A stretch of 55,663 bases of DNA from positions 1-55,663 of the forward strand of contig CAIOAK010000085.1 of the NCBI GenBank assembly GCA_903855945.1, in the 5' to 3' direction. This DNA comes from an uncultured Anaeromyxobacter sp. Lineage in GTDB: Bacteria; Myxococcota; Myxococcia; Myxococcales; Anaeromyxobacteraceae. A program made the position numbers and the translations under genes. Below, piece by piece: positions 3,389-8,806 of this stretch; the stretch's first letter is position 1; each line of letters opens with the position of its first letter. Under the pieces are notes generated by a model, which ran no database searches, was not told the origin of the DNA, and saw nothing but the letters and a program-made list of their open reading frames with translations.

Positions 3389-3946
3389 TCAGCGGTCCTT
3401 CCGCGGCTGCCAGGTCGTCTCGGCGACGCCGGCTCGCTGGTTCACGGCCCGGGCCGCCTCGAAGAGGAAGTCGGAGAGCCGGTTCAGGTACACCACGACG
3501 TTCGGATCGACCGGGGCCAGGTGCGCGAGCGCCACCACGCGCCGCTCGGCCCGGCGGCAGGTGGCCCGAGCCACGTGGAGCGCGGCCGCGACCGGCGTCC
3601 CGCCCGGGAGCAGGAAGGAGGTGAGCGGGGCGAGCTCGGCATCCCACCGGTCCATCTGCTGCTCCAGCGCCTCCGCCCAGCCGGCGTGGACGCTCGGGAT
3701 GGACTCGCGCGCCCGGGAGCCCGGGGGGGTTGCGAGCTCCGAGCCCACGGCGAAGAGCTCTGCCTGGATGCGCGCCAGGTCGCCGTCCACCTCGGGGCCC
3801 GCCCCGAGGGAACGCGCGAGCCCGATGGTCGCGTTCAGCTCGTCCACCGAGCCATAGGCGTCCACCCGTGCGTCGTCCTTGGGGACGCGACCGCCCCCGA
3901 AGAGGCTGGTTTCCCCACCGTCGCCGGTCTTCGTGTAGATCTTCAT
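3389..3946 (-). CDS. Cob(I)alamin adenosyltransferase (PduO/CobO2 type)
   Basis: This 185-residue enzyme transfers the adenosyl group of ATP to cob(I)alamin, giving coenzyme B12. The N-terminal ATP motif YTKTGDGGETSLFGG, the DAYGSVDELNA motif and the helix-4 arginines in RATCRRAERR are all present, as in the trimeric PduO family. Length is typical (180-200). The ATG lies 26 bases from the divergent ATP-grasp gene start, so the two share a very short promoter region. The gene heads an operon with the SDR at 2683-3387. It may serve B12-dependent enzymes elsewhere in the genome; none is encoded in this window. Confidence 0.9.
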   Translation of the reverse strand: MKIYTKTGDGGETSLFGGGRVPKDDARVDAYGSVDELNATIGLARSLGAGPEVDGDLARIQAELFAVGSELATPPGSRARESIPSVHAGWAEALEQQMDRWDAELAPLTSFLLPGGTPVAAALHVARATCRRAERRVVALAHLAPVDPNVVVYLNRLSDFLFEAARAVNQRAGVAETTWQPRKDR

Positions 3947-3955
3947 GCACCGCCT

Positions 3956-3964
3956 TGCTATCAG
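3956..3964 (+). promoter_or_regulatory. Candidate extended -10 of the ATP-grasp gene
   Basis: TGC-TATCAG lies in the 26-base divergent gap, followed by eight bases and the ATG at 3973. No Shine-Dalgarno is present. It follows the leaderless pattern seen at other genes here, though the last base of the hexamer is G rather than T. Confidence 0.3.
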
Positions 3965-3972
3965 CGCCCGCC

Positions 3973-5319
3973 ATGCACCGCAACGGTCCCTTCACCCCCG
4001 ACGAGCTGGTCCGCATCGGAACCGACGCGGCCCGACAGGCCTGGGGCGCCGGGATGACGGTGCTTCGCCCCGACGGGGAGGTGGTCCCCATCCCGCTCGT
4101 GGCCGAGCCGGAGGTGGAGTCGCGGGAGCGGCTCGGGTGGCTGTCCGCCGAGTCGAGGGCCATCCTCTCCGGGTCGGTGAAGCTCGCCCGGGCGCTCATC
4201 CAGCGCGGCGATCCGCTCGATCGGGAGTCCCTGCTCGGCCCGTTCGAGGGGCTCGAGGCCGAGGCGATGGCGCTCCTCTTCACCGAGGCGCCGTGCCCCG
4301 CCGTGGTCTCCCGGGTCGATTTTCTCCCCCCGGGCGACGGGGGGCTGCCGCGAGCGCTCGAGCTGAACGCCACCATCCCCGCCATGCCGGCCTACGCGGA
4401 CCTGGCCAGCCACTCCTGGATCCGCGCCGCCGCACGGATGCGCGGCCTCGTCCCCCACCGCGAGCGGGAACTCCTGGCGCGGGCCGGCAGCCACATGGAG
4501 GCCCTGCGGGAGACCCTGGTCGCCTTCTACCGCCTTCGGGGTGGGGAGCGGGAGCGCCCCTCCATCGCCATCGTGGCCCGCCCCGGAGACGCCCAGATCG
4601 GCGAGCTGCGGCGGCTCGAGGCACACTTCCGGCAGATGGGGCACGAGGTCGCCGTCCTCGTCCCCTCCGAGGCCGATCCCGATCGGCACGACCTCCTCTA
4701 CAGGCACGTCTGGGCCCACCGGACGCCGCCCGACTCGCCCTTCGCACGCGCCCTGCGCGAGCCGGCACGCTGGCCGCTCGCCAATCCGGTCAACGGCTTG
4801 CTGGAGGCGAAGGCGCTCTTCGCCCGGCTCTCCCAGGCGGCCGAGGACGCCTCGCTCGCCGGCCTGGCCGGCCTGGACGGGGTGGAACTCGCCGCCGCCC
4901 GCCGACTCCCCTGGACGCGGCTCCACGGCACGGCAACGGTCGATCGCCTCCTGGAGCGGCGGGAGGAGCACGTGCTCAAGCGGAGCTGGGACTACGGCGG
5001 GAAGAGTGTCCACCTCGGAGCGGAGACCGAGCCCGCCGCGTGGGAGCGGATCGTCCGCGAGGCGGCCCAGGACCACCGGGGAGGTGGGTTCGTGGCCCAG
5101 GAGCGGGTCTTCGCCGCGCGCCGCCCGGCCACCCGGATCACCCCGGCCGGCGCGGAGCCCGGGAGCCTCTACCGCGACATCTCCACCTACGGCGGTCTCC
5201 TCCCGGTGCATCCGGGCGGAAGCGTGGTCCGCGCGGCAGCTTCACCCATAGTGAATATTCTGGGCGGCGGCGGCCTGGCCCCGGTGATCCCCGGCGACGT
5301 CTGGGAGGCACTCTGCTGA
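3973..5319 (+). CDS. Probable ATP-grasp-like enzyme of unknown substrate
   Basis: The 448-residue protein has no signal peptide. Features that suggest a circularly permuted ATP-grasp (glutathionylspermidine-synthase-like) fold are ELNATIPAMPAYADL near residue 132, a lysine-glycine loop LKRSWDYGGKSVHLG near 335, and a C-terminal GGSVVRAAASPIVNILGGGGLAP resembling the nucleotide-site end of such proteins (quoted in parts: VVRAAASPIVN, LGGGGLAP). A ligase or amide-bond-forming role is therefore inferred, not shown. The stop TGA overlaps the codon before the next coding frame, so the downstream degenerate GGDEF domain may be coupled or fused to it. The position just upstream of a sensor kinase and NtrC-type activator is suggestive but not informative about substrate. 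Confidence 0.6.
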   Translation: MHRNGPFTPDELVRIGTDAARQAWGAGMTVLRPDGEVVPIPLVAEPEVESRERLGWLSAESRAILSGSVKLARALIQRGDPLDRESLLGPFEGLEAEAMALLFTEAPCPAVVSRVDFLPPGDGGLPRALELNATIPAMPAYADLASHSWIRAAARMRGLVPHRERELLARAGSHMEALRETLVAFYRLRGGERERPSIAIVARPGDAQIGELRRLEAHFRQMGHEVAVLVPSEADPDRHDLLYRHVWAHRTPPDSPFARALREPARWPLANPVNGLLEAKALFARLSQAAEDASLAGLAGLDGVELAAARRLPWTRLHGTATVDRLLERREEHVLKRSWDYGGKSVHLGAETEPAAWERIVREAAQDHRGGGFVAQERVFAARRPATRITPAGAEPGSLYRDISTYGGLLPVHPGGSVVRAAASPIVNILGGGGLAPVIPGDVWEALC

Positions 5320-5717
5320 TCGGGCTCGAGGCCTCGCTCCGCCGGGAACTGGCGCGCGCGCTGCGCTACCGCCATGCGGCGTCGCTCATCGTCCTGGATC
5401 TGACCGCGTCGTCCGACGTCCAGGCCCGGGTCCGGGACGTGGTCCGGCTCTGCGACGCGGTCGAGGCCACCCCAGGGGGACAGCTCGCGGTCCTCCTGCC
5501 GGAGACCGACCTGGCGGGTGCGCTGCAGACGGCGAGCCGACTCCTGGGTCTCCTCCGACCGGGTCCCGAGGAGGGTACGGCGATGGCGGTAGGGGTCGCC
5601 AGCTACCCGGGTCCGGGAATCACCGATGCGGAGGGGCTCCTGCGCGCCGCCCAGCGTGCGATGGAGCGGGGCCGATCGGCCGGGGGTGGTATCCTGACCC
5701 CCGGCGCGCGCCATTGA
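5316..5717 (+). CDS. Degenerate GGDEF domain protein; no canonical start codon
   Basis: About 133 residues follow the outline of a GGDEF domain: an N-terminal LEASLRRELARALRYR helix, the LIVLDLTAS strand, then PGGQLAVLLPETDLAGA where GG[DE]EF should be, and a C-terminal AEGLLRAAQRAMERGR. The catalytic DEF residues are replaced (GGQLA), so cyclic-di-GMP synthesis is not expected. No in-frame ATG, GTG or TTG precedes the domain for over 70 codons. The first is a GTG at 5439, inside the domain. The CTG at 5316 overlaps the TGA of the ATP-grasp gene, so either a CTG restart or a -1 frameshift into one fused protein is needed. The boundary given here is the CTG. Confidence 0.55.
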   Translation: MIGLEASLRRELARALRYRHAASLIVLDLTASSDVQARVRDVVRLCDAVEATPGGQLAVLLPETDLAGALQTASRLLGLLRPGPEEGTAMAVGVASYPGPGITDAEGLLRAAQRAMERGRSAGGGILTPGARH

Positions 5718-5744
5718 CCCAAGAGGGTATTCTTGACCCGGGTG

Positions 5745-5774
5745 TTGACATACCCGTGGTTACCCTGGGTTACT
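5745..5774 (+). promoter_or_regulatory. Sigma-70-like promoter of the kinase-activator operon
   Basis: A perfect TTGACA (5745-5750) is followed after 18 bases by GTTACT preceded by TGG, an extended -10. The expected start site is about 12 bases before the kinase ATG. Two GGTTAC copies at 5758 and 5768 repeat with a 10-base period inside the core promoter and could be half-sites for a regulator. Confidence 0.45.
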
Positions 5775-5792
5775 GGCGCACCAGCCCCCCCA

Positions 5793-7322
<1,530 letters not shown>

Positions 7323-7336
7323 TCGGAGAATTCCCC

Positions 7337-8806
7337 ATGGAAGACGCCGCACGTCCCGCCCGCGTCCTGGTCGTCGACGACGAGCCCAGCGTCCTGCGCG
7401 CGCTCGAGGTCATCCTCCGCAAGAAGGGGCACGACGTGGTGGCCCTCGACTCGCCCATCGCCGCCATGCAGCGGCTCGCGTCGGAGGACTTCGACGTGGC
7501 GATGCTGGACATCCGCATGCCCGAGCTCTCCGGGATCGAGCTCCTGAACGCCGTGAAGCACCGTAGGCCGGAGGTCGAGGTCATCATGATGACCGGCCAC
7601 GCCACCGTGGACACCGCGCTCGCCGCCATGAAGGCGGGCGCGCACGACTACCTCATCAAGCCCTTCATCGAGAAGCCCGACGACATCGAGCACGTGGCCT
7701 ACGTGGTGGCCCGGGCGGCCGAACGAAAGCGGCTGCAGGATCGCAACCGGCAGCTCACGACCCGGCTCGAGGCGATGGAGAACACGCAGGGGCTCGTGGG
7801 TTCGAGCGGGCCGATGCGCGAGGTGGTCCGGATGATCGAGGCCGTGGCCTACAGCGCCACGACCGTGCTCGTGCAGGGGGAGAGCGGCACGGGGAAGGAA
7901 CTCGTCGCCCGCGCGCTCCACGCCCGGAGTCCGCGCCGGGCCCAGGCCTTCGTGGCGATCAACTGCGGCGCGCTCACCGAGACGCTGCTGGAGAGCGAGC
8001 TGTTCGGCCACGTGAAGGGGTCCTTCACCGGGGCGAACCGCGACCACAAGGGGCTCTTCGAGTCGGCCACCGGAGGCACCATCTTCCTCGACGAGATCGG
8101 CGACATCCCGCTCTCCACCCAGGTCCGGCTGCTGCGGGTGCTGCAGGAGGGGGAGATCAAGCGGGTGGGATCCACCGAGCCCATCAAGGTGGACGTGCGG
8201 GTGATCGCGGCCACGCACCGGGAGCTTCCCAAGCTCGTCCGGGCCGGGAAGTTCCGCGAGGACCTCTTCTACCGGCTCAACGTGATCGCCATCCCGCTTC
8301 CGGCGCTGCGCGACCGGCTCGACGACGTCCCGCTCCTCGCCCACCATTTCGTTCGCCGCTACGCGGACCGGCTCGGCAAGCAGATCCACTCGATCTCGCC
8401 GCAGGCCATCGAGCTGCTCTGTGCCTACCGCTGGCCCGGAAACGTGCGCGAGCTGGAGAACGCCATCGAGCGGGCGGTGGTCCTCTGCCGCGGCGACCTG
8501 ATCCAGCCGGTGGACCTCCCCCCGTCGGTCAGCGGGCGCACGGCGCCGGTGCTGCGCGATGCCGCCGGAGCCGCCGCCGACGCGGAGATGATCCTCCAGA
8601 GCTACGCCACCGCCAAGGAGGTCGCGCTGCGCAACTTCGAGCGGCGCTACGTCGATGCGCTCATGAAGGCCTGCGAAGCCAACATCTCGGCCGCCGCCCG
8701 CCGGGCCGGGATGGACCGGTCCAACTTCAAGCGGGTGCTGCGCAAGTACCAGCCCGACGTCGCCGACGAGGGGGACGGAGAGGGGTCGCAGGAGGCCACC
8801 CCGTAG
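7337..8806 (+). CDS. NtrC-family sigma-54-dependent response regulator
   Basis: The 489-residue protein has a receiver domain (D58 in LDIRMPELSG, K in YLIKPF), an AAA+ domain with Walker A GESGTGKE and Walker B GGTIFLDEIGD, and a Fis-type DNA-binding helix-turn-helix at the end (ISAAARRAGMDRSNFKRVL). It should oligomerise when phosphorylated and drive open-complex formation by sigma-54 RNA polymerase. The sigma-54 contact loop reads GSFTGA (228-233) instead of GAFTGA. A good Shine-Dalgarno (GGAGAA) precedes the ATG. It follows the hybrid kinase by 14 bases and is probably phosphorylated by it. No convincing -24/-12 promoter was found near it, so its targets probably lie elsewhere. Confidence 0.95.
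   Translation: MEDAARPARVLVVDDEPSVLRALEVILRKKGHDVVALDSPIAAMQRLASEDFDVAMLDIRMPELSGIELLNAVKHRRPEVEVIMMTGHATVDTALAAMKAGAHDYLIKPFIEKPDDIEHVAYVVARAAERKRLQDRNRQLTTRLEAMENTQGLVGSSGPMREVVRMIEAVAYSATTVLVQGESGTGKELVARALHARSPRRAQAFVAINCGALTETLLESELFGHVKGSFTGANRDHKGLFESATGGTIFLDEIGDIPLSTQVRLLRVLQEGEIKRVGSTEPIKVDVRVIAATHRELPKLVRAGKFREDLFYRLNVIAIPLPALRDRLDDVPLLAHHFVRRYADRLGKQIHSISPQAIELLCAYRWPGNVRELENAIERAVVLCRGDLIQPVDLPPSVSGRTAPVLRDAAGAAADAEMILQSYATAKEVALRNFERRYVDALMKACEANISAAARRAGMDRSNFKRVLRKYQPDVADEGDGEGSQEATP

Follow-up and report, generated by a model that had tools for sequence, protein, structure and literature searches.

A separate, reduced GGDEF gene overlapping the end of an ATP-grasp-like gene in an Anaeromyxobacter, with a candidate CTG start and a putative c-di-GMP-binding site

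In a 55,663-nucleotide stretch from an uncultured Anaeromyxobacter sp. (contig CAIOAK010000085.1, hereafter the window), the stop codon of an ATP-grasp-like gene overlaps the start of a degenerate GGDEF coding sequence (positions 5313 to 5717, forward strand; stop codon at 5715–5717) that would give 134 residues if read from the CTG at 5313. This remnant is under purifying selection, on the branch leading to the window as well, and is very probably a separate reduced gene that has shrunken in place from a receiver-GGDEF regulator. As to what it does, the reading we favour, for and against which we find the case about evenly weighted, is that of a stand-alone degenerate GGDEF domain and putative I-site binder of c-di-GMP, weakly translated from a CTG by coupling to the ATP-grasp gene. 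Among the papers listed in a literature search restricted to open-access articles, none dealt with the remnant gene.

The ATP-grasp-like gene upstream of the remnant (3973 to 5319, forward strand, from an ATG to the TGA at 5317–5319) encodes 448 residues ending in DVWEALC. Its label is weak in the window protein, for which the best Pfam model, CP_ATPgrasp_2, scored 11 bits at E 0.2, with no family reaching E 0.1 and no match in an NCBIfam scan, but it is better in relatives, where 2 of 10 members matched at E up to 0.1 (best 2.8e-8). A search of solved structures with this protein gave E 0.25 at best, which we treated as chance. Distant relatives match models of circularly permuted ATP-grasp proteins and of glutathionylspermidine synthase, and the family is present in 53 of the 60 relatives searched. 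Three neighbours serve as syntenic markers: upstream, a cobalamin adenosyltransferase gene on the reverse strand (3389 to 3946), identified by family match, and downstream, both on the forward strand, genes for a receiver-histidine kinase (5793 to 7322; family match, start picked by eye) and for an NtrC-type regulator (7337 to 8806; named by eye from its sequence, without a family scan). A promoter and terminator scan of positions 3900 to 5900 found none and was uninformative.

The usual gene order in other genera is cobalamin adenosyltransferase, ATP-grasp, receiver-GGDEF, receiver-histidine kinase and NtrC-type regulator, and in the window genus it is the remnant that occupies the receiver-GGDEF slot. 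Of 20 genomes from other genera of the family, 17 have a full-length receiver-GGDEF gene with a GGEEF motif, 0.03–3.1 kb downstream of the ATP-grasp gene; as for the remaining three, in G018 and G020 the contigs break off ~0.2 and 1 kb past that gene, and G023 yielded no more than a fragment of it. Moreover, a profile built from the four remnants, those of the window and of three sister species (G001–G003), ranked eight locus GGDEF domains as its top eight among 35 domains, these being 29 of the 35 GGDEF matches in four genomes plus six further locus domains. In a GGDEF tree the remnants sat on a long branch (1.87) in an unsure position and were not grouped with the locus domains, and forcing them together was not rejected (p-AU 0.224; four long or partial rows were omitted from the second tree). 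Since the tree neither supports nor rejects descent, the claim of descent rests on position and on the similarity ranking.

All three sisters also encode, among the matches listed, a full receiver-GGDEF elsewhere in the genome, but this is only 37–41% identical to the locus protein, compared with 48–89% identity to the G013 copy among locus copies of other genera, and on these figures we take it to be a paralogue. Among the matches listed (of 81) in the window genome, none spans both a receiver and a GGDEF domain, and the best is a GGDEF domain with 45% identity. That genome also has seven other GGDEF matches, one of them cut by a contig end, and five PilZ matches. Within one family, then, an enzyme appears to be turning into a probable pure sensor, being full length in other genera and reduced in four species, and the full and reduced forms behind the same gene would allow a direct test of which residues c-di-GMP binding needs after catalysis is lost.

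An earlier note, made from the window's letters, had described a degenerate GGDEF domain read in the −1 frame relative to the ATP-grasp gene, and both points were borne out. The frame reads LLIGLEASLRRELARALRY...PGGQLAVLLPETDL..., and the window remnant matches the Pfam GGDEF family with E 1.5e-4 and 22 bits, just under the 23.8 cut-off; matches were obtained in all four genus members, the best with E 3.1e-7. That the frame begins at the ATP-grasp stop holds for its conserved part, the frame itself being open far upstream. With ~134 residues against ~330 in a full receiver-GGDEF protein, the remnant has lost the receiver, the DxLTxLxNRR motif, the GGEEF motif, the substrate loop (DHFKxxND...GD) and roughly one helix. 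An alignment of 17 locus GGDEF domains (the G014 gene is split, and only its C-terminal part aligned well) has 44 invariant columns, of which 14 are retained in all four remnants. The losses cover the bulk of the substrate loop (D, F, K, N, D, H, G, D), GGEEF apart from its second glycine, and the C-terminal K and R. Replacement of the catalytic motif had been noted before with the letters GGQLA, but the stretch that aligns with GGEEF is PGGQL (residues 54–58; 5472 to 5486, forward strand), and PGDRV stands there in the three sisters, so that none of the four has a GG[DE]EF motif. Of the substrate-loop signature DxDxFKxxND with its C-terminal K and R, only the first D is kept (D29), which we take to correspond to a metal ligand of active cyclases, and in all four remnants the C-terminal K has become R (residue 121) and the R has become G (residue 125). 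Our assignment of roles in active cyclases to these residues follows in part a report on the Myxococcus xanthus protein SgmT (PMC3509222). With nearly all catalytic residues gone, the remnant is very probably without cyclase activity.

What remains of the charged residues is D29, R45, D48 and R76, and the last three make up a potential I-site. An RxxD (RLCD; R45 and D48; 5445 to 5456, forward strand) stands five residues before the degenerate motif, its R and D being invariant in 17 of 17 locus domains and all four remnants, and R76 (5538 to 5540, forward strand), also present in all four remnants, matches by spacing a third I-site residue, R794 of SgmT. The remnant thus combines a degenerate catalytic site, an RxxD at the expected distance and a second arginine, the sequence features of an I-site receptor. 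The 14 retained columns, out of 44, include every one of the three I-site positions (hypergeometric p 0.027, a post hoc comparison). An AlphaFold2 model, computed from the window protein and six rows from related loci, had a pLDDT of 87.8 and a pTM of 0.84, and its best PDB matches were GGDEF domains (Foldseek E 7e-7; Z 16.9 over 130 aligned residues at 2.5 Å), with only GGDEF-type entries among the top matches read. Full GGDEF domains have two helices between the first two strands; the model has one. The GGDEF fold is therefore predicted to be retained. With that predicted fold and the three I-site residues remaining, a small stand-alone c-di-GMP receptor is the most likely product, although for the binding itself we would go no further than calling the remnant a putative receptor, a designation as apt to prove wrong as right.

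Proteins of this kind have been described. SgmT has a degenerate A-site (GGGVF) and an intact I-site through which c-di-GMP binding was demonstrated (PMC3509222), and the distances separating its R763, D766, motif at 772 and R794 equal those between R45, D48, the motif at 54 and R76. SgmT likewise comes from a myxobacterium, but there the GGDEF domain forms the C terminus of a hybrid histidine kinase, whereas the remnant stands alone. BcsE and PelD lack the P-loop and helix α1 and still bind c-di-GMP via the I-site (PMC7439463); like the remnant, they miss both elements, have a diverged GGDEF motif and keep the RxxD, but they are multidomain proteins of exopolysaccharide systems, and BcsE keeps a degenerate receiver of the sort lost here. 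A third comparison is with the locus receiver-GGDEF proteins of other Anaeromyxobacteraceae (DmxB/PleD-type layout), which share the slot, the GGDEF fold family and the I-site residues, and have a receiver, GGEEF and a full substrate loop, all three of which the remnant lacks. We regard the observation as mostly explained, by a reduced GGDEF gene with a rare CTG at its start, and the remnant as a candidate member of the degenerate GGDEF I-site receptors of the SgmT, PopA, PelD and BcsE type, with putative binding. Counting against a receptor are the retention of D29 and the example of TmoK of M. xanthus, a GGDEF protein that neither makes nor binds c-di-GMP (PMC4877007), from which it follows that a GGDEF protein need not bind this ligand.

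As the earlier note had stated, the head of the remnant frame has no canonical start. The nearest in-frame ones are a GTG 279 nt before the end of the ATP-grasp stop and the GTG at 5439, 120 nt after it, with no ATG, GTG or TTG between the two; the upstream GTG was rejected as a start, as no sister starts there. The three sister species (records L004, L003 and L005, with the same junctions) have the same frame at the same place, and in each a GTG overlaps the ATP-grasp stop, the junction being GTGCTGA in the first two sisters and GTGA in the third. At the window junction, CTG CTG A with GGAGG ahead, the CTG at 5313–5315 (forward strand) aligns with the GTG of the first two sisters, and the CTG at 5316–5318 (forward strand), which overlaps the stop as CTGA, aligns with the stop-overlapping GTG of the third. 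At 5313 the window has a C where the first two sisters have the G of their GTG, a substitution that leaves the ATP-grasp protein unchanged (leucine either way, CTG or CTC). More GTGs lie near the junction of the third sister, so that its exact start is unsure. A Shine-Dalgarno-like GGGAGG (5303 to 5308, forward strand) precedes the two window CTGs by 4 and 7 nt respectively, and GGAGG, or GGAG in one sister, lies upstream of the remnant start in all four genus members. These elements are not peculiar to the overlap: GGAGG occurs at equal distance in a locus of another genus (L029) where no remnant overlaps, and a GTG or ATG overlapping TGA, as well as GGAGG, was found in relatives without an ATP-grasp/GGDEF overlap.

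A restart at CTG, one of the two routes to expression proposed in the earlier note, fits the window copy, given that a GTG occupies the corresponding position in the sisters; a CTG here stands where orthologues have a canonical start and is preceded by a ribosome-binding sequence. We consider it somewhat more likely than not that CTG is used as the remnant start today. Such use would be rare and weak: CTG accounts for 0.024% of bacterial starts and supports 0.86% of AUG efficiency (PMC11497404), and a change from GUG to CUG was recorded for 1 of 5,080 ancestral GUG starts (PMC5622118). The window copy would be an uncommon natural case of a GTG start replaced by CTG in a gene that selection still seems to maintain, and so bears on the natural use of CTG.

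Selection on the frame was assessed with a codon model for the four sequences on a fixed four-species tree (130 codons, the first three omitted), for which synonymous sites are near saturation (pairwise dS 0.7–1.05). In frame, ω ranged over 0.10–0.25 across branches, segments and the two treatments of branch length (free or fixed), as against 1.4 and 5.5 in wrong-frame controls (122 and 128 of 129 codons), and on this comparison a chance open frame in GC-rich DNA was rejected. With free branch lengths, ω was 0.19 on the window branch and 0.095 in the sisters (difference p 0.20), and neutrality on the window branch was rejected (LRT 15.1, p 1e-4), these being branch averages, which cannot date a recent loss. 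When branch lengths were taken from the ATP-grasp gene and fixed, ω was higher on the window branch, 0.22 versus 0.145 (p 0.03), and for codons 42–132 alone 0.25 versus 0.13 (p 0.007), which fits an onset of decay. The remnant also evolves fast, the window copy being 50–55% identical to those of the sisters versus 85–87% for the ATP-grasp gene.

We propose that ribosomes finishing the ATP-grasp gene reach the TGA at 5317–5319 with GGAGG just behind them and a CTG, at 5313 or 5316, within reach, and would restart there with low efficiency; as the remnant start overlaps the ATP-grasp stop, translation is probably by coupling. After the change from GTG to CTG the start should still work, though with some 1% of the efficiency of AUG if Escherichia coli figures hold here. 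The product, ~134 residues with a predicted GGDEF fold, should not make c-di-GMP but may bind it through R45, D48 and R76, and could pass the signal by contact to a presumed partner, for which gene order suggests the ATP-grasp protein or the downstream receiver-histidine kinase. Loss of the receiver would have cut the remnant off from phosphorelay input. The fullest version of this account, a single-domain c-di-GMP receptor shrunk in place, coupled to the ATP-grasp gene as a possible partner and turned down by a natural GUG-to-CUG change while under selection, is offered tentatively, as somewhat unlikely to be right in all its parts.

The strongest rival, to which we give slightly less credence again, is that the gene is functional in the genus but was newly silenced here, the GTG-to-CTG change having nearly switched it off and decay just beginning. 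The start codon is the sole lesion seen and CTG is a very weak start (PMC11497404), and the window copy is the faster-evolving one, with a higher branch ω in one of the two tests; against silencing, the copy is free of stops and frameshifts, it preserves the predicted fold, the I-site residues and GGAGG, and neutrality is rejected on its branch, by a test that averages over time and hence cannot date a loss. An error of sequence or assembly, by which the true base at 5313 would be G and the start a GTG as in the sisters, is less probable still. The assembly has 213 contigs and one base would restore the sister state, but a single mistaken C/G exchange would have had to fall on precisely the start codon, a small target, and the neighbouring codons differ from those of the sisters too. 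We think it distinctly improbable that translation starts at GTG 5439, the nearest canonical start downstream, to give a 92-residue fragment: this would miss the N-terminal helix and strand of the modelled fold, and the 39 codons ahead of that GTG are constrained (ω 0.17, neutrality rejected with p 1e-11, lengths fixed from the ATP-grasp gene), which makes such a start unlikely. Least likely, and scarcely credible on the loci read, is the other route of the earlier note, fusion of the two frames by a −1 frameshift into an enzyme with a regulatory GGDEF domain. In its favour, the remnant frame lies open ahead of the stop and across it, and an in-frame GGGGGGN heptamer ~55 nt before the stop, in a conserved LGGGG stretch, is common to the three sisters. 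Against it, the window shows no slippery heptamer in frame over the 900 nt preceding the stop, and all four genus members retain an intact ATP-grasp stop. Homologues are separate, with a normal GTG start overlapping the stop in 3 of 3 sisters, an outcome that the earlier note had itself named as refuting. No fused gene was found in the four genus members or the family loci read, and elsewhere in the family the GGDEF domain belongs to a separate downstream receiver-GGDEF gene.

The family loci vary in other respects. In G012 (L006/L049) the ATP-grasp match extends over ~1446 nt in two segments, compared with the usual ~1320, which suggests an insertion near query residues 119–123. G007 (L045/L033) has an extra receiver domain ~130–480 nt after the ATP-grasp match and ahead of the receiver-GGDEF, ~46% identical to the receiver of the window's receiver-histidine kinase, and one open frame through both suggests a receiver-receiver-GGDEF protein. 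No receiver-histidine kinase was found at the usual place in G009 (L047) or in L010 (JAJZTO010000267.1, the same locus as L016, of G014), where an NtrC-like match of 48% comes after the receiver-GGDEF instead. In G014 (L010/L016) the reading frame shifts within the receiver-GGDEF gene (84–1069 nt after the ATP-grasp match) and so splits it, likely an error given the record's coverage of 1.2. Finally, ~3.1 kb separate the ATP-grasp and receiver-GGDEF genes in G022 (L056) as against 0.03–1.4 kb in the other loci compared, which points to an insertion.
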